The notes: generated by a model from the letters alone, not told the origin. DNA of 64,000 nucleotides from Terriglobia bacterium (GCA_020073085.1 JAIQFV010000019.1:1-64000); one strand, 5' to 3'; positions 34,759 to 49,480 are shown, counted from the stretch's first letter. Translations and numbers: made by a program.

Positions 34759-35110
34759 ATTCAAGGGTAATGCCCTGGGCTCACATCGACATCCCGTTCA
34801 GGGATGGGGTTGATTCTTGTCCCAGCGGGTTCGACTTCCTATCATTCGGGGCAGTTCCGAACTCCAGATTTCTCATCGAAGGTCGAACTGAGTTTGTCCG
34901 CAGTAAGAATCCCACGGCGCGCTCCCCGCGTGGATTTCGGAATCGCGCTGAACAGGCCGGCACTAACGAGGAAGCCGGAAGTCTGGCCTTTACATCGGTC
35001 CTTCTCCAACTCATTTTTCTGGTTGACTGGACCATTGCCTCAGGGTAATCTCAATCCCCTTCAGGATTCATAACAGTTACTCCTTCTTGGATTATCCATC
35101 AGGAACATCG
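34759..35110. other. Gene-free stretch before the first of three kinases
   Basis: No frame shows family similarity or a credible ribosome-binding site. No continuation of the second beta module of the preceding gene was found in the three plus-strand frames. Confidence 0.4.
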
Positions 35111-37690
35111 ATGCCGTTGGCCACAGGCAGTCGTCTCGGACCGTACGAAATCCTCTCGCTTCTCGGCGCGGGCGGAATGGGTGAGGTGTACCGGGCCCGG
35201 GACACGCGCCTGGGACGTGATGTTGCCGTCAAGATTCTCCCCTCCTCGTTCGCGGGAGAAGCCGACCGCCTGCGCCGTTTTGAGCAGGAGGCCCGTGCGG
35301 TTGCGGCCCTGAACCATCCCAACATTCTGGCGGTCCACGATATTGGCAACGAAAACGGCTCCCCCTACCTTGTCTCGGAGCTGCTCGAAGGAAGCACCCT
35401 GCGCGAGCGAATCAAGGGGGGAGCGCTGCCTTCCCGAAAGGCGATCGAGTACGCACTCCAGGTCGCCAGAGGCCTGGCCGTCGCGCACGAAAAGGGCGTT
35501 GTTCATCGCGACTTAAAGCCCGACAACCTCTTCATTACCAAGGATGGCCGCGTCAAGATTCTTGATTTCGGGCTCGCCAAGCTCACCCGCATTGAGCCCC
35601 TCAGTGGAAGTGGATCTCAGACCTTCGCACAGACGGAAAACACCGGCACCTCGCCGGGAGTGGTCATGGGAACCATCGGATATCTTTCGCCCGAACTCGT
35701 TCGTGGTCAGCCGGCGGATCATCGTTCCGACATTTTTTCGTTTGGGGCGATCCTGTATGAAATGCTCTCCGGGGAACGGGCCTTCAAACATGACTCGGCC
35801 GCCGAGACCATGACCGCCATCCTGAAGGAAGACCCGCCGGATCTGGCGAAGCTGAACCCAAAAGTTTCGCCCGGGCTGGAACGAATCGTTCGCCACTGCC
35901 TGGAAAAGAATCCCGAGGAGCGCTTCCAGTCAGCGCGCGATCTGGCTTTTGATCTTGAATCCCTCTCCGATCTGTCGGCTTCATCCCTGGCCACCGCAGC
36001 GTCCGTTCCGAAGAGGCGCAATCGTTTTCTGGGACTCGTGCTCATAATTGCTGCCGCTGTTGTCCTGCTTGGCATCGGATATTTTGCAGGCAGGCAGGGG
36101 GAGCAAAAGCCGCCGCTGTATCACCAGCTTACCTTCCGCAGAGGCACCATCCGCATGGCACGATTTGCCCCTGACGGACAGACCGTTGTCTATGGCGCCG
36201 CCTGGGAAGGGAACCCCATTGAAATATTCGCATCGCGGCCCGAAAGTCCGGAGTCGCGTCTGCTAGGGCTTGCACGCACCGAGATTCTCGCAATTTCTTC
36301 GACAGGAGAGATGGCCGTCACTCTGGCTCCCCGCCTTTCCGGCCCTTACACCAGTATCGGGACCCTCGCCCGTTTGCCACTGGCAGGCGGGGCTCCCCGC
36401 GAAATGCTGGAGGAAGTTCAATGGGCGGATTGGTCTCCGGACGGCACCAATCTCGCGGTGGTGCGCAATGTGGGTGGGTTGAATCGCCTTGAGTTTCCGA
36501 TCGGAAAGGTGCTTTACGAAACCAACGGATGGATCAGCCACCCGCGAATCTCCCCCCAGGGAGACCGCATTGCCTTTCTCGATCATCCTCTTCCCGGGGA
36601 CGATGGAGGTCTGGTCTCGGTCGTTGATCTGGAAGGCCACAAGCAAGCCCTTTCCGTGGGACAAATCAGCACTCAAGGCCTGGCCTGGTCCGCTAACGGG
36701 AAAGAGATCTGGTTTACCGCAACGCGGCAAGGGAGCGCGCGGGCAGTGTTTGCCATCAGCTTGACCGGACACGAACGGCTGGTGGCGCGAATGCCCGGCA
36801 CCTTGACGCTCCAGGATATCTACAAGGACGGGCGTGTCCTCTTGGCGCGAGACAGCTGGCGCCGGGAACTCAAAGGCCTCCCTGCAGGTGAAACAAAGGA
36901 ACGCGATCTCTCCTGGCTCGATTACTCTTACCCGGCGGCCCTCTCCCGGGACGGGAAAACACTTCTGTTTGATGAGGAGGGCGAAGGGGGCGGATGGACT
37001 TACGCGGTTTACCTCCGCAAGACGGATGGGTCTCCCGCGATCCGACTCGGGCCAGGTCAGGCCATGGCGTTGTCTCCCGATGAAAAGTGGGTGATTTCAC
37101 TTCCTTCGAGTTCCAGTGGACAATTTGTTCTTTTGCCCACTAAGGCGGGGGAGGCGAAACCTCTGACCAATGAATCCATCAATCATATCTGGGCATGCTG
37201 GTTCCCCGACAGCAAGCGATTCCTTTTCTCTGGAAATGCACCCAGCCAGGGGGTTCGGCTCTTTGTTCAGGACATGGCGGGTGGAAAGCCGCAGGGTATC
37301 ACGCCGGAAGGAATCAACAGTTCTGCCTTCACTCTTTCTCCTGATGGACAGCTCGTGGCAGGGATCGGACCAGACCAGAAGGGCTACCTCTATCCCGTGG
37401 CCGGCGGTGAGCCGCGTCCGATATCCGGCCTTGAACCCGGTGAAGAGCCCATCAGTTGGGGGGCAGATGGTCGCTCCTTATTTATCTATCGCCCGGGGGA
37501 CCTGCCCGCCAAGGTCTACCGGCTAGAGTTGGGCATCGGCCGAAGAACCCTATTGGAGCAACTCATGCCCTCCGATCCCGCCGGGGTGAATCACATCGGC
37601 CCCATCGTTTTAACGCCCGACGGAAAGACCTATGTGTACGGTTACCATCGGACCCTCACCGACCTGTACCTTGTCGAAGGATTGAAATGA
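35111..37690 (+). CDS. Membrane Ser/Thr protein kinase with TolB/WD40-like propeller (copy 1)
   Basis: The 859-aa protein has a Hanks-type kinase domain (about 12-285), one membrane helix (about 307-327) and a large outside propeller. Kinase residues are complete: GAGGMGEVY loop, K41 in VAVKIL, HRDLKPDN with D134, and DFG 152-154. The C-terminal part shows repeated RFAPDGQT-, LSPDGQLV- and SWGADGRS-like units as in TolB-type propellers, and ends in LTDLYLVEGLK. ATG 35111 follows AGGA by 7 bp and gives the PYEIL start shared with the two neighbours. It is a close paralogue of the protein at 40758-43340. Confidence 0.92.
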   Translation: MPLATGSRLGPYEILSLLGAGGMGEVYRARDTRLGRDVAVKILPSSFAGEADRLRRFEQEARAVAALNHPNILAVHDIGNENGSPYLVSELLEGSTLRERIKGGALPSRKAIEYALQVARGLAVAHEKGVVHRDLKPDNLFITKDGRVKILDFGLAKLTRIEPLSGSGSQTFAQTENTGTSPGVVMGTIGYLSPELVRGQPADHRSDIFSFGAILYEMLSGERAFKHDSAAETMTAILKEDPPDLAKLNPKVSPGLERIVRHCLEKNPEERFQSARDLAFDLESLSDLSASSLATAASVPKRRNRFLGLVLIIAAAVVLLGIGYFAGRQGEQKPPLYHQLTFRRGTIRMARFAPDGQTVVYGAAWEGNPIEIFASRPESPESRLLGLARTEILAISSTGEMAVTLAPRLSGPYTSIGTLARLPLAGGAPREMLEEVQWADWSPDGTNLAVVRNVGGLNRLEFPIGKVLYETNGWISHPRISPQGDRIAFLDHPLPGDDGGLVSVVDLEGHKQALSVGQISTQGLAWSANGKEIWFTATRQGSARAVFAISLTGHERLVARMPGTLTLQDIYKDGRVLLARDSWRRELKGLPAGETKERDLSWLDYSYPAALSRDGKTLLFDEEGEGGGWTYAVYLRKTDGSPAIRLGPGQAMALSPDEKWVISLPSSSSGQFVLLPTKAGEAKPLTNESINHIWACWFPDSKRFLFSGNAPSQGVRLFVQDMAGGKPQGITPEGINSSAFTLSPDGQLVAGIGPDQKGYLYPVAGGEPRPISGLEPGEEPISWGADGRSLFIYRPGDLPAKVYRLELGIGRRTLLEQLMPSDPAGVNHIGPIVLTPDGKTYVYGYHRTLTDLYLVEGLK

Positions 37691-37695
37691 AAGAC

Positions 37696-37892
37696 AGGGA
37701 CAGACACCAACTCGCTCCACTCCAGTGAAGATCGGCAGAGATTAGGTGTCTGTCCCTTAAGTCCAGGAATTGAGCCGTCGCTAAAATCGGAGTGCCGCGT
37801 ACATGCGTTCTTTGCATGTGTGCGAATCACAGGGACAGACACCGGCTCGATCGGCCGCAGTGAAGATCATCGTCGTTTAAGTGCCTGTCCCT
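37696..37892. repeat. Two 62-bp palindromic elements (AGGGACAGACACC type)
   Basis: Element 1 covers 37696-37757 and element 2 37831-37892. Both start with AGGGACAGACACC and end with its reverse complement (GGTGTCTGTCCCT, or AGTGCCTGTCCCT in element 2). Both have the same length. Between them is a small hairpin at 37801-37819 (ACATGC/GCATGT). Element 2 ends 12 bp before the ATG of the next kinase and so occupies its leader. Confidence 0.8.
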
Positions 37893-37904
37893 CACGTCAA
37901 TGAA

Positions 37905-40613
37905 ATGCTCCCACAGGGTACGACGCTCGGACCTTATGAAATCCTCTCACCGCTCGGCGCAGGCGGCATGGGCGAGGTGTATCGCGCCCGTGATGTAAGG
38001 CTTAATCGCGACGTGGCGATTAAGGTGTTGCCGCCTGAGTTTTCAAACGATGCCGAGCGCATGGCACGTTTCCAGCGGGAAGCGGAACTGCTGGCCTCGC
38101 TGAATCATCCCCACATCGCATCAATTTATGGACTCGAGGAAGCGGAGGGGACACGCGCCCTGGTGATGGAGCTGGTGGAAGGACAAACGCTTGAGGACCG
38201 CCTCGCGGACCCTGTAGGGGCGCATAGCATGCGCCCCAGCCAGAAAGCAGACATGAAAGAGAGCGGGCGCTGTGCGCCCCTCCCATTAGAAGAGGCATTG
38301 CCCATCGCCCGGCAAATCGCGGAGGCCCTTGAATACGCCCATGAGAAAGGCATCATCCACCGCGACCTGAAGCCGGCCAACGTGAAAGTGACGCCGGCCG
38401 GGGATGTAAAAATTCTGGATTTTGGTCTGGCAAAGGCGCTGGAAGATTCACCCGTCGCTTCTGACACCTCCAATTCGCCCACGTTTACGTTGGGAGGGAC
38501 AAAGTCAGGCGTCATCCTGGGCACTGCAGCGTACATGAGTCCGGAGCAGGCACGGGGGAAGTCCGTCGATCGACGGACCGATGTTTGGGGCTTCGGGGCC
38601 GTTCTGTATGAACTCCTCACTGGACATCAAGCCTTCCACGGTGAGACCGCCTCGGACACACTGGCGGCGGTGATCAAGGATGAACCCGGCTGGATTCTTC
38701 TGCCCGCAAACATCCCATCCGCGATTGAAAAACTACTGCGGCGCTGTCTCGAAAAAGATCCCAAGCGACGCCTGCAAGCCATCGGCGAAGCACGCATCGT
38801 TATTGGAGATGTCCTCGACGGAAAGGCTGAAGATAAAACAGTCATTCCCCCCGTTCCACACCCGATCTCTTCCTCGCGTCGCTTTCCCATTCGCTTGACC
38901 GCTGCGGTATTCGTGTTCGCCCTGGCCGCAGTTCTATGGTGGCAGAATTCGCGACCTTCCCTGGATCAAAAGTGGACAGGCGAATTGCTGGGCGGATCTT
39001 CTGTCGCCTTCGGACCGCGAATCTCACCGGATGGACAAATACTGGCCTTCCAGGCGATGGTCAACGGTCTGAACCAGGTGGCGGTGATGAAGCCCGATTC
39101 GGGGAATTGGACGGTCCTGACCCATGACCGGTCGCGCGGTCAGATTTTGGAAATGAGTTGGTCGCCGGATGGGACAAGGATTTACTTCGACCGTTACCTG
39201 GACGTTCCAACCGGAATCTACAGCGTCCCGGTGTTGGGGGGAGAAGAGCGTCCGGTTCTGGAAGATTCGATGTACCCGGAGAGCCTGCACGACGGAAGCT
39301 TCCTGGTCGTCCGGCTCAACGCGGAACGTCTTCTTCAACTCCACCGGTTCTGGCCCGACACAGGACGCCTTCAACCCTTGGGAGCCATTTGGATCCCGGA
39401 TCAAGGGACGCCACTGGTGCGCGTGTTTCCCGACGGTAAGGAGGCAGTATTTTATGGAAGACTCCTCGAAGGCCCGCCCGAGGGAGCTAATTCCTTGTAC
39501 GTAATCGATCTGCATTCGGGACGCACTCGCCATTTGGCTTCCATTACTCCGATTAACCAGGGGGCTCTTCCCGGTGGCATGGCTGTTACGCCGGATGGAC
39601 GCTCCGTTCTTGTCAATCTGTCTTCGGGAAATCTAAGTACCATTGTCTCGGTCCCCCGGGATGGGTCCAGCTCCCAAAAAACGCTGCTTACGCTGACGAT
39701 GCTGACGGGCTTCATGGACGTGGGTTCCGACGGCAGCCTTTACTTGGACCAGATAGATCGTGTGGGGGAAGTGCTTCGCTATCCCTCTTCCGGGGGAGTT
39801 CCCGAGAAGGTCGCGACGGTTGTCGGCTCCTCGGGTGATGGCCGGGGAGCCCTCGTCCTTCCCGATGGCCGCGTTCTGGTCCCTTCTCGCCTTGCCGGGC
39901 GGGACCGGCTTCTCCTTGTCGCTCCCGGCAAGGATCCTGTGCCCATGTTTGACGCGGTGGAGGATACAGCCTCTCCCGCCACCCTGCTCGGGGAAAGTGA
40001 GATAGCATTTCTTGCGGGTCGGCCGCCGAATCAGACCATTGCGGTCGCGTCGCTGAGTGGGGGCCGGATTCTTCGCCGGCTCCAGGGGTCCCAAGGTGCC
40101 GACATTCAAAGCCTGACGGCATTTCCTGATGGCAGAACGCTCTACTATGCCGCCAATGGAAATGTATGGGCGATCCCCGCAGTTGATGGAGAGCCACGAA
40201 AGATTCACCCCGGCGATGGGGTTGCAGTCGATCGCGGCAAACAGGATTTGATCATCCAGCTCTTTGAAATGAATGGCGCCCGTCTGGTGCGGGTTCCTCT
40301 CTCGGGCGGGCCGGATATTCCCATTCCGTACAAAAGTGAAATGCGCCTCGCCCTTTTTCCACTGGCGGGCGATGCGGTTCGGAAGGACGGGCGGATCCTC
40401 GTGCAGGTGACGACAAAGGATTCCTGGTTCTGGAAACCGGCGGTGCTCGATCCCTCCACAGGGAAACTGGAGATGGTCCCTTTGAACTATGAGGGCGATG
40501 CCCTGATGCCCGCTTGGACGAGCGATGACCGCATCCTTAGCATCGGCATCCCGCTGCGGTCTACCATCTGGCGTTTTCGACAGGCGGCTGGAAGCGGAAG
40601 CGTGAAGCCGTGA
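37905..40613 (+). CDS. Membrane Ser/Thr protein kinase with propeller domain and in-frame repeat insert (copy 2)
   Basis: The 902-aa protein has a kinase domain (about 10-310), a membrane helix (RLTAAVFVFALAAVLWW) and a C-terminal beta-propeller-like region with PDGKEAVF- and TPDGRSVLV-type units. Kinase residues are complete: GAGGMGEVY, K40, HRDLKPAN with D154, DFG 172-174. Between LEDRLA and LPLEEALPIARQIAEALEYA an extra about 25 residues (102-126) are encoded by a palindromic DNA repeat (see 38215-38282). It is less similar to its neighbours than they are to each other. ATG 37905 is chosen; the frame upstream is encoded by the 62-bp repeat. No good ribosome-binding site is visible. Confidence 0.9.
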   Translation: MLPQGTTLGPYEILSPLGAGGMGEVYRARDVRLNRDVAIKVLPPEFSNDAERMARFQREAELLASLNHPHIASIYGLEEAEGTRALVMELVEGQTLEDRLADPVGAHSMRPSQKADMKESGRCAPLPLEEALPIARQIAEALEYAHEKGIIHRDLKPANVKVTPAGDVKILDFGLAKALEDSPVASDTSNSPTFTLGGTKSGVILGTAAYMSPEQARGKSVDRRTDVWGFGAVLYELLTGHQAFHGETASDTLAAVIKDEPGWILLPANIPSAIEKLLRRCLEKDPKRRLQAIGEARIVIGDVLDGKAEDKTVIPPVPHPISSSRRFPIRLTAAVFVFALAAVLWWQNSRPSLDQKWTGELLGGSSVAFGPRISPDGQILAFQAMVNGLNQVAVMKPDSGNWTVLTHDRSRGQILEMSWSPDGTRIYFDRYLDVPTGIYSVPVLGGEERPVLEDSMYPESLHDGSFLVVRLNAERLLQLHRFWPDTGRLQPLGAIWIPDQGTPLVRVFPDGKEAVFYGRLLEGPPEGANSLYVIDLHSGRTRHLASITPINQGALPGGMAVTPDGRSVLVNLSSGNLSTIVSVPRDGSSSQKTLLTLTMLTGFMDVGSDGSLYLDQIDRVGEVLRYPSSGGVPEKVATVVGSSGDGRGALVLPDGRVLVPSRLAGRDRLLLVAPGKDPVPMFDAVEDTASPATLLGESEIAFLAGRPPNQTIAVASLSGGRILRRLQGSQGADIQSLTAFPDGRTLYYAANGNVWAIPAVDGEPRKIHPGDGVAVDRGKQDLIIQLFEMNGARLVRVPLSGGPDIPIPYKSEMRLALFPLAGDAVRKDGRILVQVTTKDSWFWKPAVLDPSTGKLEMVPLNYEGDALMPAWTSDDRILSIGIPLRSTIWRFRQAAGSGSVKP
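38215..38282. repeat. REPIN-like element inserted in the kinase reading frame
   Basis: The left hairpin GGGGCGCAT-AGC-ATGCGCCCC occupies 38217-38237. The right hairpin GGGCGC-TGT-GCGCCC occupies 38265-38279. The two halves are inverted relative to each other (AGGGGCGCA at the left, TGCGCCCCT at the right). The element adds about 25 codons without stop to the kinase gene at 37905. Confidence 0.75.
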
Positions 40614-40757
40614 CTCACACCAAGGCTAACGATGAAGCCCGGCGCCACACATGTTGCGTTCTCCGCGATTCTGCGGTGAAGATTCACGGAGCCTCATGGC
40701 CTAATCTCTGCAATTCCTGGTTTTGAATTTTTTTCGAACTTGGGGGAAAATCACAAC

Positions 40758-43340
40758 ATGTCCATTGCCGCAGGCGCCAAAATTGGTCCCTACGAGATCC
40801 TTTCCATCCTGGGTGCTGGAGGCATGGGGGAGGTTTACCGGGCGCGAGATTCGCGGCTGAATCGAGACGTCGCTATCAAGATTCTGCCCGATTCGTTCTC
40901 CAGCGATCCCGATCGCCTCCGCCGTTTTGAAGGAGAAGCCCGGGCCATCGCGGCGCTCAGTCACCCCAACATTGTCGCCATTTTCGATACCGGCTCCTGC
41001 GAGAACAGCCCCTACATTGTGTCTGAATTGCTGGAAGGACAAAGTCTGCGTGAACGGATCGCCCATGGCGCGGTTCCTTCCCGAAAGGCCATTGAATACG
41101 CCTTGCAGGCCGCCCACGGCCTCGCGGCGGCTCATGAAAAAGGCATCGTTCACCGCGATTTAAAACCCGATAATATATTCCTCACCCGGGATGGGCGGGT
41201 AAAAATACTCGACTTCGGGTTGGCGAAACTGACCCGGTCGGAGACGCTTCCGGTCAGCGGGACGCATACCGTCGGGGGAGTCGACAGCGGTGTGACGTCG
41301 CCGGGGATGGTTATCGGCACTCTCGGCTATATCTCTCCCGAACAAGTGCGCGGACAGCCTGCCGACCATCGCTCCGATATTTTTTCGTTTGGGGCCATTC
41401 TCTATGAAATGCTCTCGGGCCAGCGCGCCTTCAAGCATGACTCCGCCCCCGAAACCCTGACGGCCATTTTGAAAGAGGATCCTCCGGACCTGACGAAACT
41501 GGATCAGAAGATCTCTCCCGGGCTGGAGCGGATTGTGCGTCACTGCCTCGAGAAGAACCCGGAAGAACGCTTCCAGTCAGCCCGTGATCTGGCGTTTGGC
41601 CTGGATTCGCTTTCTAATCTATCCGGACTGAGCACTCCCCCTCTCGAAGTCTCCCCGAAGAGACGCTATCAAGTCTTTCTTCCCTGGCTCTTGCCTCTTC
41701 TGGCACTGGTGGTCGTGTTGAGTGCCGGATTCCTGAAGTGGAACCGTGGAGAACCTTCGCAGCCCTTGTATCACCAGCTCACTTTTCGTCGCGGCAACTT
41801 ACACATGGCGCGATTTGCACCCGACGGACAAACCATTGTTTACGGTGCGGCCTGGGAGGGGAATCCTATCGAAATTTTCACCACCCGCCCCGAGAGTCCC
41901 GAATCGCGATCTCTGGGGTTGAACCGCGCGGAGATCCTCGGGATTTCTCCGGGGGGCGAGATGGCGCTTCTCTTGAACAGCCGTCCCGCCGGCACGTGGA
42001 TTAATAGCGGCACACTGGCCCGGGCGCCGCTCGCGGGGATGGCGCCTCGTGAAATTCTTGAAAATGTGCAGGGGGCGGAGTGGGACCCGAAGGGCGCCAA
42101 TCTCGTCGCGATCCGCGACATCATGGGTCACAACCGTTTGGAGTACCCCATCGGAAAGGTGCTTTACGAAACCGGGGGCTGGACCAGCTATCCACGGGTT
42201 TCCCCGGGAGGCGACCTGATTGCCTTCCTCGATCATCCGTTGCAGGGAGACGATGGCGGATCGGTCGCTGTGGTGGACCTGTCGGGAAAGAAAAAGACGA
42301 TTTCGAGCAATTGGGGCACCATGGAAGGTTTGGCCTGGTCTCCCGCGGGGGATGAGATTTGGTTCACGGCAAACAAGGCGGGAGGGGACCGCGCCCTCTA
42401 CGCGGTGACGCTTTCAGGTCGGGAGCGGCTCGTCGCCCGGGTTCCCGGTGCCCTGATAATACAGGACATTTGGCGCGACGGTCGCGTGCTCATGACCCGT
42501 AACAATGAGCGGCGGGGAATGATCGGGCTTTCCGCCGGCGAATCGAAAGACCGGGATTTATCGTGGCTCGACTGGTCTCGTCCCGCGGGGATTTCCGCGG
42601 ATGGCAAGACAGTCCTCTTCTCTGAAGAAGGAGAAGGCGGCGGCGCCAGTTACTCCGTTTGCATTCGTAAAATGGATGGGACCCCTGCGACCCGGCTGGG
42701 CGAGGGCACCGGACTGGCATTGTCACCCGATGGGGCCTGGGTGCTCGCGACTCGTGCCGATTCGGTCGGACTTCTCACTCTTCTTCCCACCAAGGCAGGA
42801 GAAGCAAGGATCCTGTCACAGGACCAACTGAATCATATCCGGGCCATTTGGTTTTTCGATGGAGGGCGCTTTCTTTTTTCAGGAAATGAACCGGGTCGTG
42901 GTGTGCGGCTCTACGTTCAAGCGGTGGACGGGAAGAAACCACAACCCATCACGCCCGAAGGAACGAACGCCTTTTCGTTCTCGCTATCCCCGGATGGCAA
43001 AATGGTTGCCGCCGTAGGGCCTGACCAGAAAGGATATCTTTTCCCCGTCGAGGGTGGCCAGCCCCGCCTCATCCCGGGCCTGGCGTCCGACGAACTGCCC
43101 GTCTCCTGGAGTGCCGATGGCCGCGCCCTGTTGATTTACCGTCTCGGGGAATTGCCCGCCAAGGTTTATCGCCTGGAATTGAGCAATGGACAAAAATCCG
43201 TTTTAAAGGAGCTCCTGCCTTCCGATTCTGCCGGCATCAATGTCATCGGTCCCATCTTTGCAACTCCCGACGGCAAGAACTTCGTCTACGGCTACGTGCG
43301 CAGCCTCTCGGACCTCTACCTCGTCGAAGGATTGAAATGA
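40758..43340 (+). CDS. Membrane Ser/Thr protein kinase with TolB/WD40-like propeller (copy 3)
   Basis: The 860-aa protein matches the layout of the one at 35111: PYEILSILGAGGMGEVYRAR start, VAIKIL lysine, HRDLKPDN, DFGLAKL, a membrane helix (FLPWLLPLLALVVVLSAGFL) and a propeller that ends in LSDLYLVEGLK. Shared blocks such as PLYHQLTFRRG, MARFAPDGQT, EWEGNPIE-like WEGNPIEIF and IGKVLYET run along the whole length. Copies 1 and 3 are therefore recent duplicates, with copy 2 between them. Both have the same expected topology: kinase inside, propeller outside. The targets are unknown. Confidence 0.92.
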   Translation: MSIAAGAKIGPYEILSILGAGGMGEVYRARDSRLNRDVAIKILPDSFSSDPDRLRRFEGEARAIAALSHPNIVAIFDTGSCENSPYIVSELLEGQSLRERIAHGAVPSRKAIEYALQAAHGLAAAHEKGIVHRDLKPDNIFLTRDGRVKILDFGLAKLTRSETLPVSGTHTVGGVDSGVTSPGMVIGTLGYISPEQVRGQPADHRSDIFSFGAILYEMLSGQRAFKHDSAPETLTAILKEDPPDLTKLDQKISPGLERIVRHCLEKNPEERFQSARDLAFGLDSLSNLSGLSTPPLEVSPKRRYQVFLPWLLPLLALVVVLSAGFLKWNRGEPSQPLYHQLTFRRGNLHMARFAPDGQTIVYGAAWEGNPIEIFTTRPESPESRSLGLNRAEILGISPGGEMALLLNSRPAGTWINSGTLARAPLAGMAPREILENVQGAEWDPKGANLVAIRDIMGHNRLEYPIGKVLYETGGWTSYPRVSPGGDLIAFLDHPLQGDDGGSVAVVDLSGKKKTISSNWGTMEGLAWSPAGDEIWFTANKAGGDRALYAVTLSGRERLVARVPGALIIQDIWRDGRVLMTRNNERRGMIGLSAGESKDRDLSWLDWSRPAGISADGKTVLFSEEGEGGGASYSVCIRKMDGTPATRLGEGTGLALSPDGAWVLATRADSVGLLTLLPTKAGEARILSQDQLNHIRAIWFFDGGRFLFSGNEPGRGVRLYVQAVDGKKPQPITPEGTNAFSFSLSPDGKMVAAVGPDQKGYLFPVEGGQPRLIPGLASDELPVSWSADGRALLIYRLGELPAKVYRLELSNGQKSVLKELLPSDSAGINVIGPIFATPDGKNFVYGYVRSLSDLYLVEGLK

Positions 43341-43667: not shown

Positions 43668-44030
43668 ATGAAGAATCTACAAACGCTGGGTGTGTTGGCC
43701 ATGTTGTTGGCCATCAATCCAGTCGGGGGCAGTCGGATTCGCGGTATGTCTGACCCCGCTCTTTCATTGGGGCAGCAAACGGAATCCTTGAACCCCAAAC
43801 GGGTCCAGGTGGATCAAGCTTTCCTGGAACGAAATCTGCTTTTCGAACACATTCCCACTTTCCCGATGCAGAACCAGTTGGTACGAATAGAAGGTGAGGT
43901 TGTGGTTCACGTCGTCGTATCCACCGGTGGGCGGGTGATCGATGCCAGGCTGGAGAATGGGGATCCAAGGCTTGCTCTGAGGGCCCTTGAAGCGGCCAAG
44001 TCTTATCGTTATTACCCCCATGGTCATTGA
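43668..44030 (+). CDS. TonB C-terminal-like domain protein, 5' part of a frameshifted gene
   Basis: The 120-aa reading has a hydrophobic N-terminus (MKNLQTLGVLAMLLAINPVG) and then a TonB-C-like fold: RIEGEVVVHVVVSTGGRVID, RLENGDPRLALRALEAAKSY and RYYP. The usual last strand is missing from this frame, which ends at PHGH. It continues in the next frame as MVIDGVPVEMEGLIRMYFN. A run of five C at 44015-44019 lies exactly at the switch. One C fewer would join both parts, so this is the 5' half of one gene. The start at 43668 has GGGAG 8 bp upstream. Confidence 0.7.
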   Translation: MKNLQTLGVLAMLLAINPVGGSRIRGMSDPALSLGQQTESLNPKRVQVDQAFLERNLLFEHIPTFPMQNQLVRIEGEVVVHVVVSTGGRVIDARLENGDPRLALRALEAAKSYRYYPHGH

Positions 44031-45744
44031 CGGAGTTCCCGTGGAGATGGAGGGTCTCATCAGGATGTACTTTAACTGGGATCCTCTTGTCAGCCTGGGC
44101 CAGTATTTGGGGAGCTGGAAAGGCGAACGCTCAAATACCCTGCCGATTTCCCGAATCGATATACATCACGATTTGGAGAAAGGGCTGTCCGCGCATTTCT
44201 GGAATCATTGCGGGGGGAATGAGTGCGATGCCGGCGAGGCTCGTTTCTTCTACTCGGCGTATGAAGAGGGAACGATCCAAGTGGAAAAGGACCTCCGTTT
44301 CGGCACGGGAAATGCCTGGAAGTTCATATTGCAGCCCGATGGCCGGCTCAAGGTCCTCCCGGTCCAGTTGTCCACTGACGATGCCATCAATCCGTCAACG
44401 AGAGGAGAGCCGCAATTCTTCACACAGGAGTTTTCCCTGGAGCGCGCAACAGTCTTGGCTTACGAGGGCCGGTACTTGAACGCAAACCAGGCCGAACTGG
44501 CGGAAGAGAATCTGAAGCAATTTCCTGAGAACCTGGCGGCGAGAACGCTTTTGCTTGGCTTTTACTACTGGCAGGTTGAAAAACAGGTTGACCTTCAACC
44601 CGTAATTGCGGCGCGGCAGCGACACATTCTCTGGTTGATCGAGCACGCCCCGGAATCGGAGATTACTCGCATCGACGAGGCGCTGATTGCACCGCGGCAC
44701 AGTCCCTTGGCCGATGCGGCCGGCTTCAAACAGGCCGAACAACTTTGGCGGCAGAAGTTGAAAGCAAATAAATGTGATTTCTGTGTGTACGTGCATTCTT
44801 ATTTGTTCGTTCAACTCCACGACAAGCCCCTTGCAGAGGAAATTCTGAGAGGCTATTACCGCGGCAAGCCCGCCGACCCGCACTTTCAGGAGAACTTGAG
44901 CCGGCTGTATGCTTACGGGATCTTAGGTCTGACCGGTCTGACCATCAACGCGTTTCCCGAAGCCACCGATCCCAGTGATGCTCAGAGTCCGTTTGCACGG
45001 AAGGCCAAGGCTTTTTTGCTCCATACCCATCAAGTTCCGATAATTGAAAACGCCGCCGCTGTGCTTGTTGATTTCGGAATCCGCATGCGTGAGAAAGATG
45101 CCACAGGCGATTTTACCGTCGATTTCGAAAGCTTTTCTCGACAGCTCATTCAAAGAGGTGAGCGCCTCAGTCCGGAGCGAGCGGCGTGGAATCGGCTCCG
45201 ACGACAGTTGGAGAGGTATTACGGAAAACTGAGCTTGTCCAGCGACTACCTTCCTCAACTCAAGAAGGTTCTTGAGGGTCAGGAAGCGGCTCTCCAAAAG
45301 ATGGGGACTGTACCCTATCGGATATCTTATCTGTCGGGATGCGCGCTGATGGCTCTTCAAGTAGGCGAACTTGACAAAGCCCAAGAATACGCCCAGGAGG
45401 GTTTGGACCTCACGAGAGGCCAGGACATCGTTTCCAGCATCTATCGGGCGAAGATGAAGATGATACTGGGCCGGGTGGCGCTTCGGCGAGGCGATATGGA
45501 CTCCGCCAGGTCCTTTCTGATTCAAGCAGGCAACGAGCCCATAGGACAATGGCTCGAGAGGATGTTTCCAAGTATGGCATTGGCCAAGGAGCTCTTGGAA
45601 CATGGCGAACGAGCCGCAGTCCTCGAGTATTTGAAAATCTGCGCCGACCACTGGAACAAGGGGAAGGAAGCCCTGCTCAGATGGCGAGAGTCGATTGAAC
45701 AAGGCCAGGCGCCAAAATTTTCTTACGCCACTTTGGTAGAATGA
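44020..45744 (+). CDS. 3' part of the frameshifted TonB-C/TPR-like gene
   Basis: The 574-aa reading starts inside a TonB-C domain (MVIDGVPVEMEGLIRMYFN), continues with a beta-rich domain of about 110 residues (SRIDIHHDLEKGLSAHFWNH, then CGGNECDAGEARFF and QPDGRLKVLPVQ) and then a long helical part with TPR-like pairs (LAEENLKQFPENLAARTLLL, ALQVGELDKAQEYAQEGLDL, GRVALRRGDMDSARSFLIQA). The ATG at 44020 lies in the frameshift site and has no ribosome-binding site, so independent translation is doubtful. Either a real inactivating or programmed frameshift or a sequencing error in C5 explains the split. Confidence 0.7.
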   Translation: MVIDGVPVEMEGLIRMYFNWDPLVSLGQYLGSWKGERSNTLPISRIDIHHDLEKGLSAHFWNHCGGNECDAGEARFFYSAYEEGTIQVEKDLRFGTGNAWKFILQPDGRLKVLPVQLSTDDAINPSTRGEPQFFTQEFSLERATVLAYEGRYLNANQAELAEENLKQFPENLAARTLLLGFYYWQVEKQVDLQPVIAARQRHILWLIEHAPESEITRIDEALIAPRHSPLADAAGFKQAEQLWRQKLKANKCDFCVYVHSYLFVQLHDKPLAEEILRGYYRGKPADPHFQENLSRLYAYGILGLTGLTINAFPEATDPSDAQSPFARKAKAFLLHTHQVPIIENAAAVLVDFGIRMREKDATGDFTVDFESFSRQLIQRGERLSPERAAWNRLRRQLERYYGKLSLSSDYLPQLKKVLEGQEAALQKMGTVPYRISYLSGCALMALQVGELDKAQEYAQEGLDLTRGQDIVSSIYRAKMKMILGRVALRRGDMDSARSFLIQAGNEPIGQWLERMFPSMALAKELLEHGERAAVLEYLKICADHWNKGKEALLRWRESIEQGQAPKFSYATLVE

Positions 45745-46530: not shown

Positions 46531-47214
46531 TCAACTGGAAATCCTGTGCGCGCGGACGACAAATCGCTTGGGTGCCGGACCCACATAATAGAAAGGGTAA
46601 CAAGTCACGAGGGTAAGAACTGCATCCTCGGAATCGTCCAGCACTGAAACGTTATCGGAGCTGACCACTGCGGTAAAGTCGACGCGATAGCGGAAGGAGC
46701 CGTCCAACGTCGTCAACGTGATTTCATCATCCTTGGTGACCTTGCGCAACTCTCTGAAGAACGTGTCCCGGTGTCCCGTAATCACAACGTTCCCTTGCTG
46801 ACCCGGCAGCGGGGTACCCGAAAGATGCCCGACAGCGCGTCGCAGGGTCTTTCCGTCGGTGCCTTCCATGATCATTGCCTCAAGACCGATTGTGCTGATC
46901 TCGATCTTCCCCACGGGGAAGCCCCTGGGAACAGGCTTGCCGGGGCTCGCGGACTTCACGCCGTTTGTTTCCTCCAGGGGAGCTGCAAGGGGCGACGGCG
47001 GAATATTCTTATCCCCGTCGGTGGAGATCCTCAAATCTTTCGATGCTTGCTCGAATCGCCACTTTTCGTGAGACTGATAAATCCTCGTGTCGATCATCAC
47101 GTAGCCGACGTAAACCAACAGAAGAGTGCCGATGACAAGAAAGAGGTTTCGGCTCCAATGGAAGATCGAATGGCCTCGTCGACGAGAATTTGGCGCTCCG
47201 ATTCTGGGGATCAT
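46531..47214 (-). CDS. Sortase (class D-like transpeptidase)
   Basis: The 227-aa protein has an N-terminal membrane anchor (LFLVIGTLLLVYVGYVMI, about 24-41), a linker and a sortase domain (about 100-225). The catalytic triad is visible: H148 in VITGHRDTFF, C205 in LTLVTCYPF and R217 in PAPKRFVVRAH. The TLVTCYPF form fits class D. It would join proteins with an LPxTx-type signal to a nucleophile at the cell surface. Its start overlaps the stop of the VWFA gene (ATGA), so the two are co-translated. A candidate substrate with LPQTA lies 1.6 kb upstream in the same direction. Sortases are uncommon in Gram-negative bacteria. Confidence 0.9.
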   Translation of the reverse strand: MIPRIGAPNSRRRGHSIFHWSRNLFLVIGTLLLVYVGYVMIDTRIYQSHEKWRFEQASKDLRISTDGDKNIPPSPLAAPLEETNGVKSASPGKPVPRGFPVGKIEISTIGLEAMIMEGTDGKTLRRAVGHLSGTPLPGQQGNVVITGHRDTFFRELRKVTKDDEITLTTLDGSFRYRVDFTAVVSSDNVSVLDDSEDAVLTLVTCYPFYYVGPAPKRFVVRAHRISS

Positions 47215-48230
47215 GGTTTGTTGCTCAGTTTGGCTGGCGAGGATTCGGGTTTGTTGGGCGCATAATAACCGGGACGAGTTCGAACGATGAGGCGTCCACC
47301 CCCTGCCACGGCCTTCACCGTCACGGCCCGATAATTCCCATCTCGTTTTTCATTGGTAGACTCATAAGCGATGGTGTATTGGTTACGAATATCATGCGCG
47401 ATTTGCTCACAAATGGGGATCACGTCCTTTAACCTCTCCGGCAAAAAAGCCTTTCCACCCGTGGCCTTTGCAAACCGATGGAGGACATGTGGGTTCTTGT
47501 CGGGATCATCCGGTTCAACGAGACCCAGGGTATAGATGATGACGTCGGACTTCATCGCCAATGCCATGACCTGGTCCAGGGTGTGCTTGCTGGCGTTGTC
47601 GGCCCCATCGCTGACGACGATGAGGACTTTCTTGTCCCGATTACCTTTCTTCAGGTGTTCGAGCGCAGCCGCGATGGCGTCGTAGAGCGCCGTCTCGCCG
47701 TTTGCGGCAATTCGGGAGAGGGCGACCGCCAATTGATCCGGTTGGTCGGTGAACGCCGTGTCGGGGGGAAGGCCAAAGGAAACGTGTTCGTTGAAATTGA
47801 CCACGAACATTTGGTCCTGCGGGTTACTGGACCGTGCGAAGGCCAAAGCGGCGGCAATCACTTCAGCGCGCCTCGGTTTCATGCTTCCACTGTTATCGAC
47901 AACCAAGCCGACCGTGACCGGAATATCCTGGTGGGTGAAATACGTGATTTGTTGGAGAACCCCGTCCTCGTAAACCTGAAAGTGGTCTTTGCCCAATCCT
48001 GAAACAAGAACACCCTTGTGGGTCTGCACGGTTGCGCGCAGGATCACCATTTCCACGTCCATCCGAATCGTGTAGGGATCGGTTTGGCGGCTCTCTGCCG
48101 GTGGACTCTCTTGAGGGCAGACAACGCTCGACAGAAGAATCAGGAAGAACAGTGCGGCCAGACACCGGCAAATGGCGATACAATCCCTCTTGTGGCGTGC
48201 TCCAATTCTGATTGATCCCAAGGCCCTCAA
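47211..48230 (-). CDS. VWFA-related acidobacterial protein, secreted
   Basis: The product has up to 339 aa with a hydrophobic signal segment (CLAALFFLILLSSVVCPQ). An N-terminal module (VILRATVQTHKGVLVSGLGK, DHFQVYEDGVLQQITYF) precedes a von Willebrand A domain with MIDAS residues D-x-S-x-S in VDNSGSMKP, a Thr in GETALYDAI and Asp in VSDGADNASKH. This combination defines the VWFA-related Acidobacterial family (TIGR03436). It would bind a partner through a metal ion outside the cell. The start is unsure: TTG 48230 opens the longest frame, and other non-ATG codons follow. It overlaps the sortase gene by 4 bp. Confidence 0.87.
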   Translation of the reverse strand: MRALGSIRIGARHKRDCIAICRCLAALFFLILLSSVVCPQESPPAESRQTDPYTIRMDVEMVILRATVQTHKGVLVSGLGKDHFQVYEDGVLQQITYFTHQDIPVTVGLVVDNSGSMKPRRAEVIAAALAFARSSNPQDQMFVVNFNEHVSFGLPPDTAFTDQPDQLAVALSRIAANGETALYDAIAAALEHLKKGNRDKKVLIVVSDGADNASKHTLDQVMALAMKSDVIIYTLGLVEPDDPDKNPHVLHRFAKATGGKAFLPERLKDVIPICEQIAHDIRNQYTIAYESTNEKRDGNYRAVTVKAVAGGGRLIVRTRPGYYAPNKPESSPAKLSNKP

Positions 48231-48257
48231 CTTCCACCCCCCTGTAAAGGCGAACTG

Positions 48258-48455
48258 TTACTCGGGTGAAGAGACTCGATCGGCCACCCATCTGCCTTTC
48301 AGTTGAAGGGCACTACTCGCAAGCGCTTGCGCTCCGCGTCCCAGGAGACTGCCACCCCGTTTGAGGACGAGGCACATCACATAGGCACCAAAGAGTAGCG
48401 CTACAACGAAAAAACCTGCAAGCAGGCAAACGGCGAATTCACCAAGAGTGAGCAT
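48258..48455 (-). CDS. Small single-pass membrane protein
   Basis: The 65-aa reading has one strong hydrophobic helix (FAVCLLAGFFVVALLFGAYV) followed by a basic, probably cytosolic part (LKRGGSLLGRG). It lies 27 bp upstream of the VWFA gene in the same direction and between the LPQTA protein gene and the VWFA-sortase pair. No family is recognised and no clear ribosome-binding site is seen, so the call rests on topology and context. Confidence 0.45.
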   Translation of the reverse strand: MLTLGEFAVCLLAGFFVVALLFGAYVMCLVLKRGGSLLGRGAQALASSALQLKGRWVADRVSSPE

Positions 48456-48772
48456 ATTCTTTGAGTCTTTGTCATCATATCAAGTTGTACCGCTGATTAG
48501 TCTTGAACCTGTCCTTGGTTATCCAGGTTGTAGCGTTGCAGGTTTATTCCTGATCGGCCCTGTCCGTAGAAGGAATCGGACCCGTAGTTCAAGGGCCCAT
48601 GTTCGGGTGAGGACGGACTCTGTCGCCCGCCAGGGGAGGTTGTCCTCGTGTAGCCGCCTCCCCCCCGCAATCTCCCGGAGTCCCGTCGAGTCCACTCCGG
48701 TTAAGAAGGTGCTCCCGAAACGTCCTCAGGGGACCCCGACGCGTGGCCCACACAACCACAGACTTGCCTGAC

Positions 48773-49480
48773 TTAAGCAGCTCGCTTCCCAATAACCAGG
48801 AGCGCGAGGCCTGTCCCCAGCGAAAGCAGCCCAATCAATCCCGCGAGCGGCAATAAACTGGCCGTTTGGGGCAAGCTCTTTGCGGCGACCTCAACCGGCG
48901 CGGGCTCAACCACCTTCGGCGGTGTCTCAACCACCTTAGTTACTTCGACCACTTCTCCTGTAGGTGCAACAGCGATGACCGGCGCCGTCTTCAAAGCCTC
49001 GATGGGCGCTGCATCCAGCTCGATCGGCGTCGCGAGTATGGGCTGATTGGTTATCTTCGCCAGCTCGATGGCCCTTGACTTGGGGTACACAAATTCCTCG
49101 CCCCATTGACGCCCTGGATAAAACCATGCCCGGATGGCTTCCGGCTGCCCCTCCGCCCTCTCCTTGAACGTCATGACCGTTTTGTCGGTCGCCTTCAAAC
49201 GGTAGTTGGGGATGGCGAGAATGGTTGTAAACACATGTGTTTCGTCTTCGCTGAAGATCTGGACGATGTGGCGGTCTGCCAGTGAGTCAAAGATCTTGAA
49301 GACATAGGTGCCCGCCGGCAAATTGTGAGCGCCCACACCTGGAACTTCGATTGGCGCGTTGAAGGTCACAATGGTTTTCCTGTCCCACTCGCCTGCCCTC
49401 GAACTGGTGGACAGAAACGTTAGAGCCAGGCTGATGCAGAAAATTATCGCTATTGCTGTGTATAAGTTTGTCCTTTTCAT
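48773..49480 (-). CDS. Secreted protein with LPQTA sorting signal
   Basis: The 235-aa product has a signal peptide (NLYTAIAIIFCISLALTFLS), a beta-rich domain (KTIVTFNAPIEVPGVGAHNL, PAGTYVFKIFD, HVFTTILAIPNYRL), a Pro/Val-rich stalk (VVETPPKVVEPAPVE) and a sorting signal: LPQTA at 203-207, a hydrophobic helix (about 211-230) and the basic tail GKRAA. This three-part C-terminus is what sortases cleave, although the usual G of LPxTG is A. The gene is oriented as the sortase gene and lies 1.6 kb upstream, so it is the likely substrate. The folded domain matches small secreted proteins common in Acidobacteriota; its role is unknown. Confidence 0.85.
   Translation of the reverse strand: MKRTNLYTAIAIIFCISLALTFLSTSSRAGEWDRKTIVTFNAPIEVPGVGAHNLPAGTYVFKIFDSLADRHIVQIFSEDETHVFTTILAIPNYRLKATDKTVMTFKERAEGQPEAIRAWFYPGRQWGEEFVYPKSRAIELAKITNQPILATPIELDAAPIEALKTAPVIAVAPTGEVVEVTKVVETPPKVVEPAPVEVAAKSLPQTASLLPLAGLIGLLSLGTGLALLVIGKRAA

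Follow-up and report, generated by a model that had tools for sequence, protein, structure and literature searches.

A class D-like sortase encoded together with a VWFA protein and an LPQTAS-tailed exported protein in Acidobacteriota

Genes and gene products of the sortase locus

The window, which means here the whole stretch of 64,000 nucleotides that was analysed (Terriglobia bacterium, GCA_020073085.1 JAIQFV010000019.1:1-64000), carries a cluster between positions 46531 and 49480 that is transcribed from the minus strand in the order 235-aa protein, 65-aa ORF, VWFA protein and sortase (Table 1). The 235-aa protein consists of an N-terminal signal peptide, a body, a linker rich in proline and valine, LPQTAS, a hydrophobic stretch and KRAA, and the ORF thus reads as an earlier, sequence-only reading of this DNA had stated, namely as a secreted protein ending in LPQTA, a helix and a basic tail. 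Motif, hydrophobic helix and basic end together form a complete sorting signal at residues 203–235. Homologues of the protein are found in 15 of 41 relatives. The body domain matches no family in Pfam or NCBIfam. The structure model of the protein has a mean pLDDT of 71.5; with the body domain from this model of moderate confidence, Foldseek returned nothing at E ≤ 0.001, and the best Z score against the PDB was 3.3. Because the confidence of the model is only moderate, a new fold is not claimed.

Table 1. Features of the sortase locus, in window coordinates
Feature	Position	Strand	Basis
Exported protein, 235 aa, C-terminal sortase signal, predicted substrate	48773..49480	(-)	Read from sequence
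Body domain, about residues 30–137, beta-rich	49070..49393	(-)	Family and fold searches, structure model
LPQTAS sorting motif, residues 203–208	48857..48874	(-)	Sequence; consensus LPxT[A/G]S from 92 related tails
Hydrophobic helix 209–231 and basic end KRAA	48776..48856	(-)	Sequence; helix 210–234 in model
Predicted membrane ORF, 65 aa	48258..48455	(-)	No family match
Secreted VWFA protein, 339 aa (TIGR03436)	47211..48230	(-)	210.3 bits, cut-off 81.25
MIDAS-type motif D-N-S-G-S, VWFA residues 112–116	47883..47897	(-)	Sequence
Four-base overlap ATGA between VWFA stop and sortase start (translational coupling)	47211..47214	(-)	Sequence
Class D-like sortase, 227 aa, N-terminal membrane helix	46531..47214	(-)	Family models and structure model
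Catalytic His148	46771..46773	(-)	H in 108/108 ungapped rows of sortase alignment
Catalytic Cys205 (LVTCYPF)	46600..46602	(-)	C in 100/100 ungapped rows of sortase alignment
Catalytic Arg217	46564..46566	(-)	R in 99/99 ungapped rows of sortase alignment

The sortase matches the Pfam family PF04203 with 112 bits (cut-off 26.6) and passes the NCBIfam model NF058671, named "class D sortase, LPxTATN-specific", with 151.3 bits against a cut-off of 140. It fails the general class D model NF033746 (135.4 bits, cut-off 165), the class C model NF033745 (84.6 bits, cut-off 160) and the class GN model TIGR03784 (101.4 bits, cut-off 158.25). The nearest relative in sequence with a solved structure is 2ln7, a class D enzyme of B. 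anthracis (E 1.2e-18). The structure model (pLDDT 85) has the sortase fold, with 138 PDB chains at Z ≥ 8; the best matches are 3re9, a class C enzyme (Z 21.7), and 4d70, of class D (Z 20.7), and class C and class E enzymes score nearly equally among the structural neighbours. The enzyme is nearest to a class D sortase with a dedicated substrate, but since the score against NF033746 lies below the cut-off, "class D-like" is the safe name, its class assignment being, as judged from these searches, not fully settled. The His-Cys-Arg triad had been described as intact, and none of its three residues is substituted in any of the 108 aligned relatives.

The stop codon of the VWFA gene overlaps the start codon of the sortase gene, and the protein is a member of TIGR03436, so that the overlap of an acidobacterial VWFA gene with the sortase had been recognised correctly. 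The exact ATGA overlap recurs in 63 of 85 distinct cassettes, and the DxSxS motif is kept in 72 of 84 cassette VWFA proteins. The VWFA protein of the window has neither a sorting signal nor a C-terminal membrane anchor, and an LPxT tail is seen on none of the 84 cassette VWFA proteins. TIGR03788, the model of the class GN target, gives 30.7 bits against a cut-off of 551.65 and covers the VWA part only. Nothing on TIGR03436 was found in a literature search that covered few subscription papers.

A phmmer search of the loci with the 65-aa ORF found matches only in the two nearest relatives (family f1), which makes three genomes with the window, and judged by this distribution the ORF probably does not belong to the core unit. 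A unit of four genes had been proposed; the sortase, the VWFA gene and the gene of the LPQTA-tailed protein are indeed conserved together, whereas the four-gene version is rejected, since among the loci searched the small membrane gene is confined to the family of the window.

The LPxT[A/G]S signal and its distribution

It is literally true, as had been pointed out, that LPQTA matches no standard LPxTG, but for sortases of class D ("subfamily 4") LPxTA is the established signal (PMC3208642, PMC3617157, PMC3297441). In B. anthracis, the class D enzyme uses LPNTA (PMC3208642, PMC3297441), and the signals of B. cellulosilyticus are LPxTAT[NST] (PMC3617157). In C. perfringens, the signal is LPQTGS and the substrate gene lies within the sortase operon (PMC4498605). 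From relatives, 92 distinct tails were collected, of which 88 fit the sorting motif. The fifth motif position of these 88 is A in 65, G in 21 and S in two, and a serine follows directly in 80. The published class D motifs and the 92 related tails rule out LPQTA as a non-standard signal. For sortase subfamily 4, LP[NQ]TA[ST] is said to have been predicted by Comfort and Clubb in 2004. About ten changes between A and G at the fifth position, clustered on the sortase tree, show the two residues to be interchangeable and rule out a specificity switch that follows the sortase lineage. The four tails without LPxT read like LPEAGTNLPLYGLLG or near it, with LPxAG in place of LPxT[A/G], and possibly represent a further variant of the signal.

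Species genomes were scanned with the substrate alone, which retrieved 80 loci, nearly all from metagenome-assembled genomes (MAGs). The order tailed protein, VWFA, sortase is found at 56 of them, and several others end too early for the order to be read. The titles of 79 of the 80 name Acidobacteriota, among them Terriglobia, Bryobacter, Candidatus Solibacter, Sulfotelmatobacter, Angelobacter and others. The locus titled Planctomycetota (L248) has a complete cassette of the Acidobacteriota type and probably comes from a mislabelled MAG, otherwise from a transfer. When 81 sortase loci were compared, a tail ORF on the same strand was present within about 4.5 kb at 67, and the commonest order, seen at about 36, was body plus tail, VWFA, sortase. 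A different N-terminal protein with the same tail lies beside the sortase in G027, G029 and G036 and beside a second sortase of G001 (contig C82). The constant elements of the cassette are the tail and the sortase. VWFA is missing at many of the sortase loci and is therefore not required for the sortase reaction. Judged from the sequences, a three-gene sortase cassette is real and widespread in diderm bacteria; a literature search that covered few subscription papers found no published account of a sortase cassette in Acidobacteriota. Scans for promoters and terminators gave results at chance level. Neither a VWFA gene nor a tail of the LPxT[A/G]S type lies near the sortase at L136, L137, L138, L139, L150, L157, L159, L171 and L173, and on the tree most of these sortases group in a branch of their own, where a signal of a different kind is possibly used.

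The genome of the window encodes one sortase and one tail as counted by profile searches, the tail of the 235-aa protein being its sole tail of the sortase-signal type (E ≤ 0.01). Among the 41 relatives, from which the tail profile itself was built, the 17 genomes that have a sortase, and no others, have the tail. A search of 399 genomes of the class with the tail profile found both tail and sortase in 146, the sortase only in 20, the tail only in four and neither in 229; without the 41 training genomes the numbers are 129, 20, four and 205, respectively. In three of the tail-only genomes (G160, G237 and G269), the contig breaks off within the VWFA gene or as soon as the tailed gene has ended, and G072, with four tails and no sortase detected at 95% completeness, is the one unexplained exception. 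The 297 genomes sampled from the phylum comprise 48 with both, 11 with the sortase only, none with the tail only and 238 with neither. Equal frequency of such tails in genomes without a sortase had been named as an observation that would refute the proposed unit, and it is not what is seen, since none of the 238 sortase-less phylum genomes has a tail. In the other classes, which had no part in the training of the tail profile, all 38 tailed genomes have a sortase. Among the tails listed for the phylum genomes, 42 of 53 start within 3.5 kb of a sortase on the same contig. The Fisher values of 1e-69 and 4e-45 overstate independence because the genomes are related to one another, and they cannot be read as probabilities; the pattern of co-occurrence is seen again in many genera. 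A sortase is encoded by about a fifth of the Acidobacteriota species sampled and by two fifths of those in the class, in most cases along with a matching tail.

The body domain is present in 153 of the 399 class genomes, that is, in 134 of the 166 with a sortase and 19 of the 233 without. Those without a sortase mostly encode it as a short, tailless secreted protein or as a broken gene. In one sortase-less genome (G019:C464, L069:5274-6227), the body continues into a coiled-coil-like stretch and then an OmpA domain (PF00691, 43 bits, above the cut-off), a single case in which the contig ends within the gene. The OmpA domain family binds peptidoglycan. The case is no more than a hint that, where there is no sortase, the tail may be replaced by a module that binds the wall non-covalently. 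Tailless body-domain proteins also occur in two sortase-bearing genomes, at L051 (G004:C189) and L070 (G014:C7); at L051 the tailless copy directly adjoins the sortase, and the tailed copy lies on another contig.

Relation to known sorting systems

The SrtC system of B. anthracis, with BasH and BasI, shares with the window cassette the active-site region TCYPFxYxGxAPxR, an LPxTA signal and the small number of dedicated substrates. It differs in that the host is a sporulating monoderm, the role lies in the spore and the signal is LPNTA, whereas the window has LPQTAS and belongs to a cell with an outer membrane. A VWFA partner, present in the window cassette, is not mentioned in the literature consulted on SrtC. 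SrtD of C. perfringens resembles the window system in its LPQT-x-S signal and in the clustering of enzyme and substrate genes (PMC4498605), and also in its close fold (4d70, Z 20.7), roughly a third of the aligned positions being identical. It has G instead of A in the signal and a Gram-positive host, and no VWFA gene is mentioned in the description consulted (PMC4498605). The LPXTA system of B. cellulosilyticus (sortase D subfamily 4) likewise combines LPxTA tails with class D sortases, but it serves 27 substrates, mostly polysaccharide-degrading enzymes, and its signal is LPxTAT[NST] where the window has LPxTAS (PMC3617157).

In cells with an outer membrane, a sortase and a VWFA protein are likewise combined in the class GN sortase and the marine sortase target protein (TIGR03784 and TIGR03788, respectively). 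By the definition of the TIGR03788 family, its VWFA protein is itself the tailed target of the class GN sortase. In the window, in contrast, the VWFA protein lacks a tail, and the signal is found on another protein. The exosortase/PEP-CTERM system of diderm soil bacteria also relies on a C-terminal motif, a helix and a basic end, but the exosortase EpsH is a polytopic membrane protein non-homologous to sortase (PMC1569441). Six sortases were counted in Solibacter usitatus (PMC3174227), and a review of 2020 held that sortase was unknown in any strictly negibacterial phylum (PMC7203096). The role of sortases in outer-membrane cells is largely untested. What is interesting about the cassette is that the sortase is coupled to a VWFA protein without a tail and that the cassette occurs in an outer-membrane phylum, A in place of G being ordinary. 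A tailless VWFA protein coupled to a sortase can be regarded as a candidate accessory factor; the sortase literature searched describes none of this kind.

Proposed mechanism and alternatives

The evidence at the sequence level extends over the export signal, the sorting signal, the enzyme, the gene order, the coupling and the co-occurrence. The locus is likely to be a dedicated one-enzyme, one-substrate cassette of the class D type that serves wall tethering in an outer-membrane bacterium from soil. The 235-aa precursor would be exported via the Sec route, and its C-terminal helix would keep it in the inner membrane. We infer that the membrane-bound sortase acts on this tail, so that it would cut LPQT|AS between Thr206 and Ala207 through Cys205, form a thioester with Thr206 and join the protein to the side-chain amine of meso-diaminopimelate (meso-DAP) in lipid II or peptidoglycan. 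The MurE protein of the same genome has the DNPR motif, the meso-DAP signature. Meso-DAP is proposed on account of this motif and because the B. anthracis class D enzyme, whose cut in LPNTA falls between T and A, takes m-Dpm as the acceptor (PMC3297441). The VWFA protein, translationally coupled to the sortase, would be exported, metal-binding and unanchored, and is probably an accessory that binds the substrate or the acceptor and brings it to the enzyme.

LptD is encoded in the same genome; the cell therefore has an outer membrane, and its wall lies in the periplasm. Since the wall lies there, a wall-tethered product in the periplasm is more likely than display at the surface, and the beta-rich body would most likely end up periplasmic. 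That the genes form a surface-display unit, as had been suggested, is accordingly the less likely reading, the likely acceptor, meso-DAP peptidoglycan, being periplasmic as well. A more specific proposal can be put forward tentatively, and it may well prove wrong: in a large part of Acidobacteriota, a periplasmic beta-domain protein would be tethered covalently by the class D-like sortase to meso-DAP peptidoglycan, and the untethered, coupled VWFA protein would be needed for delivery. If true, this would be a linkage of protein to the wall in diderm bacteria without earlier description. Since one enzyme and one substrate lie side by side, what the C-terminal threonine is attached to can be tested directly.

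Tailless, body-only secreted versions of the protein in related genomes suggest that a soluble form is viable, and the candidate acceptor in a diderm cell is itself a matter of inference. Both points would fit an enzyme that mainly hydrolyses the tail and releases the body to the periplasm or the medium with no covalent anchoring. However, a signal peptide alone suffices to make a soluble protein, so that tail and sortase would be wasteful, the enzyme carries every sortase feature in family models, triad and fold, and the OmpA fusion, found where a sortase is lacking, gives a hint that attachment to the wall is needed, all of which makes such release unlikely.

VWFA domains are found in the tips of Gram-positive pili. 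Together with the class C enzyme among the best structural matches (3re9), this raises the possibility that a class C-like sortase links copies of the tailed protein into a pilus or polymer with the VWFA protein as an adhesin tip. The cassette VWFA proteins have no sorting signal (0/84) and could therefore not be joined as a tip, the genome has a single sortase and a single tail instead of several tailed pilins, and the class C model stays at 84.6 bits against 160, so that a pilus is improbable. It is very improbable that the cassette is a transferred proteobacterial system of the class GN type with the VWFA protein as the true target: the proteobacterial system does pair VWFA with a sortase (TIGR03784 and TIGR03788, NCBIfam), but the sortase model reaches 101 bits against 158 and the target model 31 against 552 over the VWA part only, and the tail is borne by the neighbouring protein, not by VWFA. 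By itself the tail could serve as a simple transmembrane anchor, but a chance neighbourhood of the genes, with the tail as no more than such an anchor, is contradicted by the gene order, the ATGA coupling and the co-occurrence across class and phylum, and hardly deserves further consideration.

Elsewhere in the window, on the plus strand at 35087–43340, three consecutive ORFs of 866–910 aa read as serine/threonine protein kinases followed by a region of beta-propeller-like repeats, and this tandem expansion adjoins the gene of a TPR-like protein at 43987–45744.
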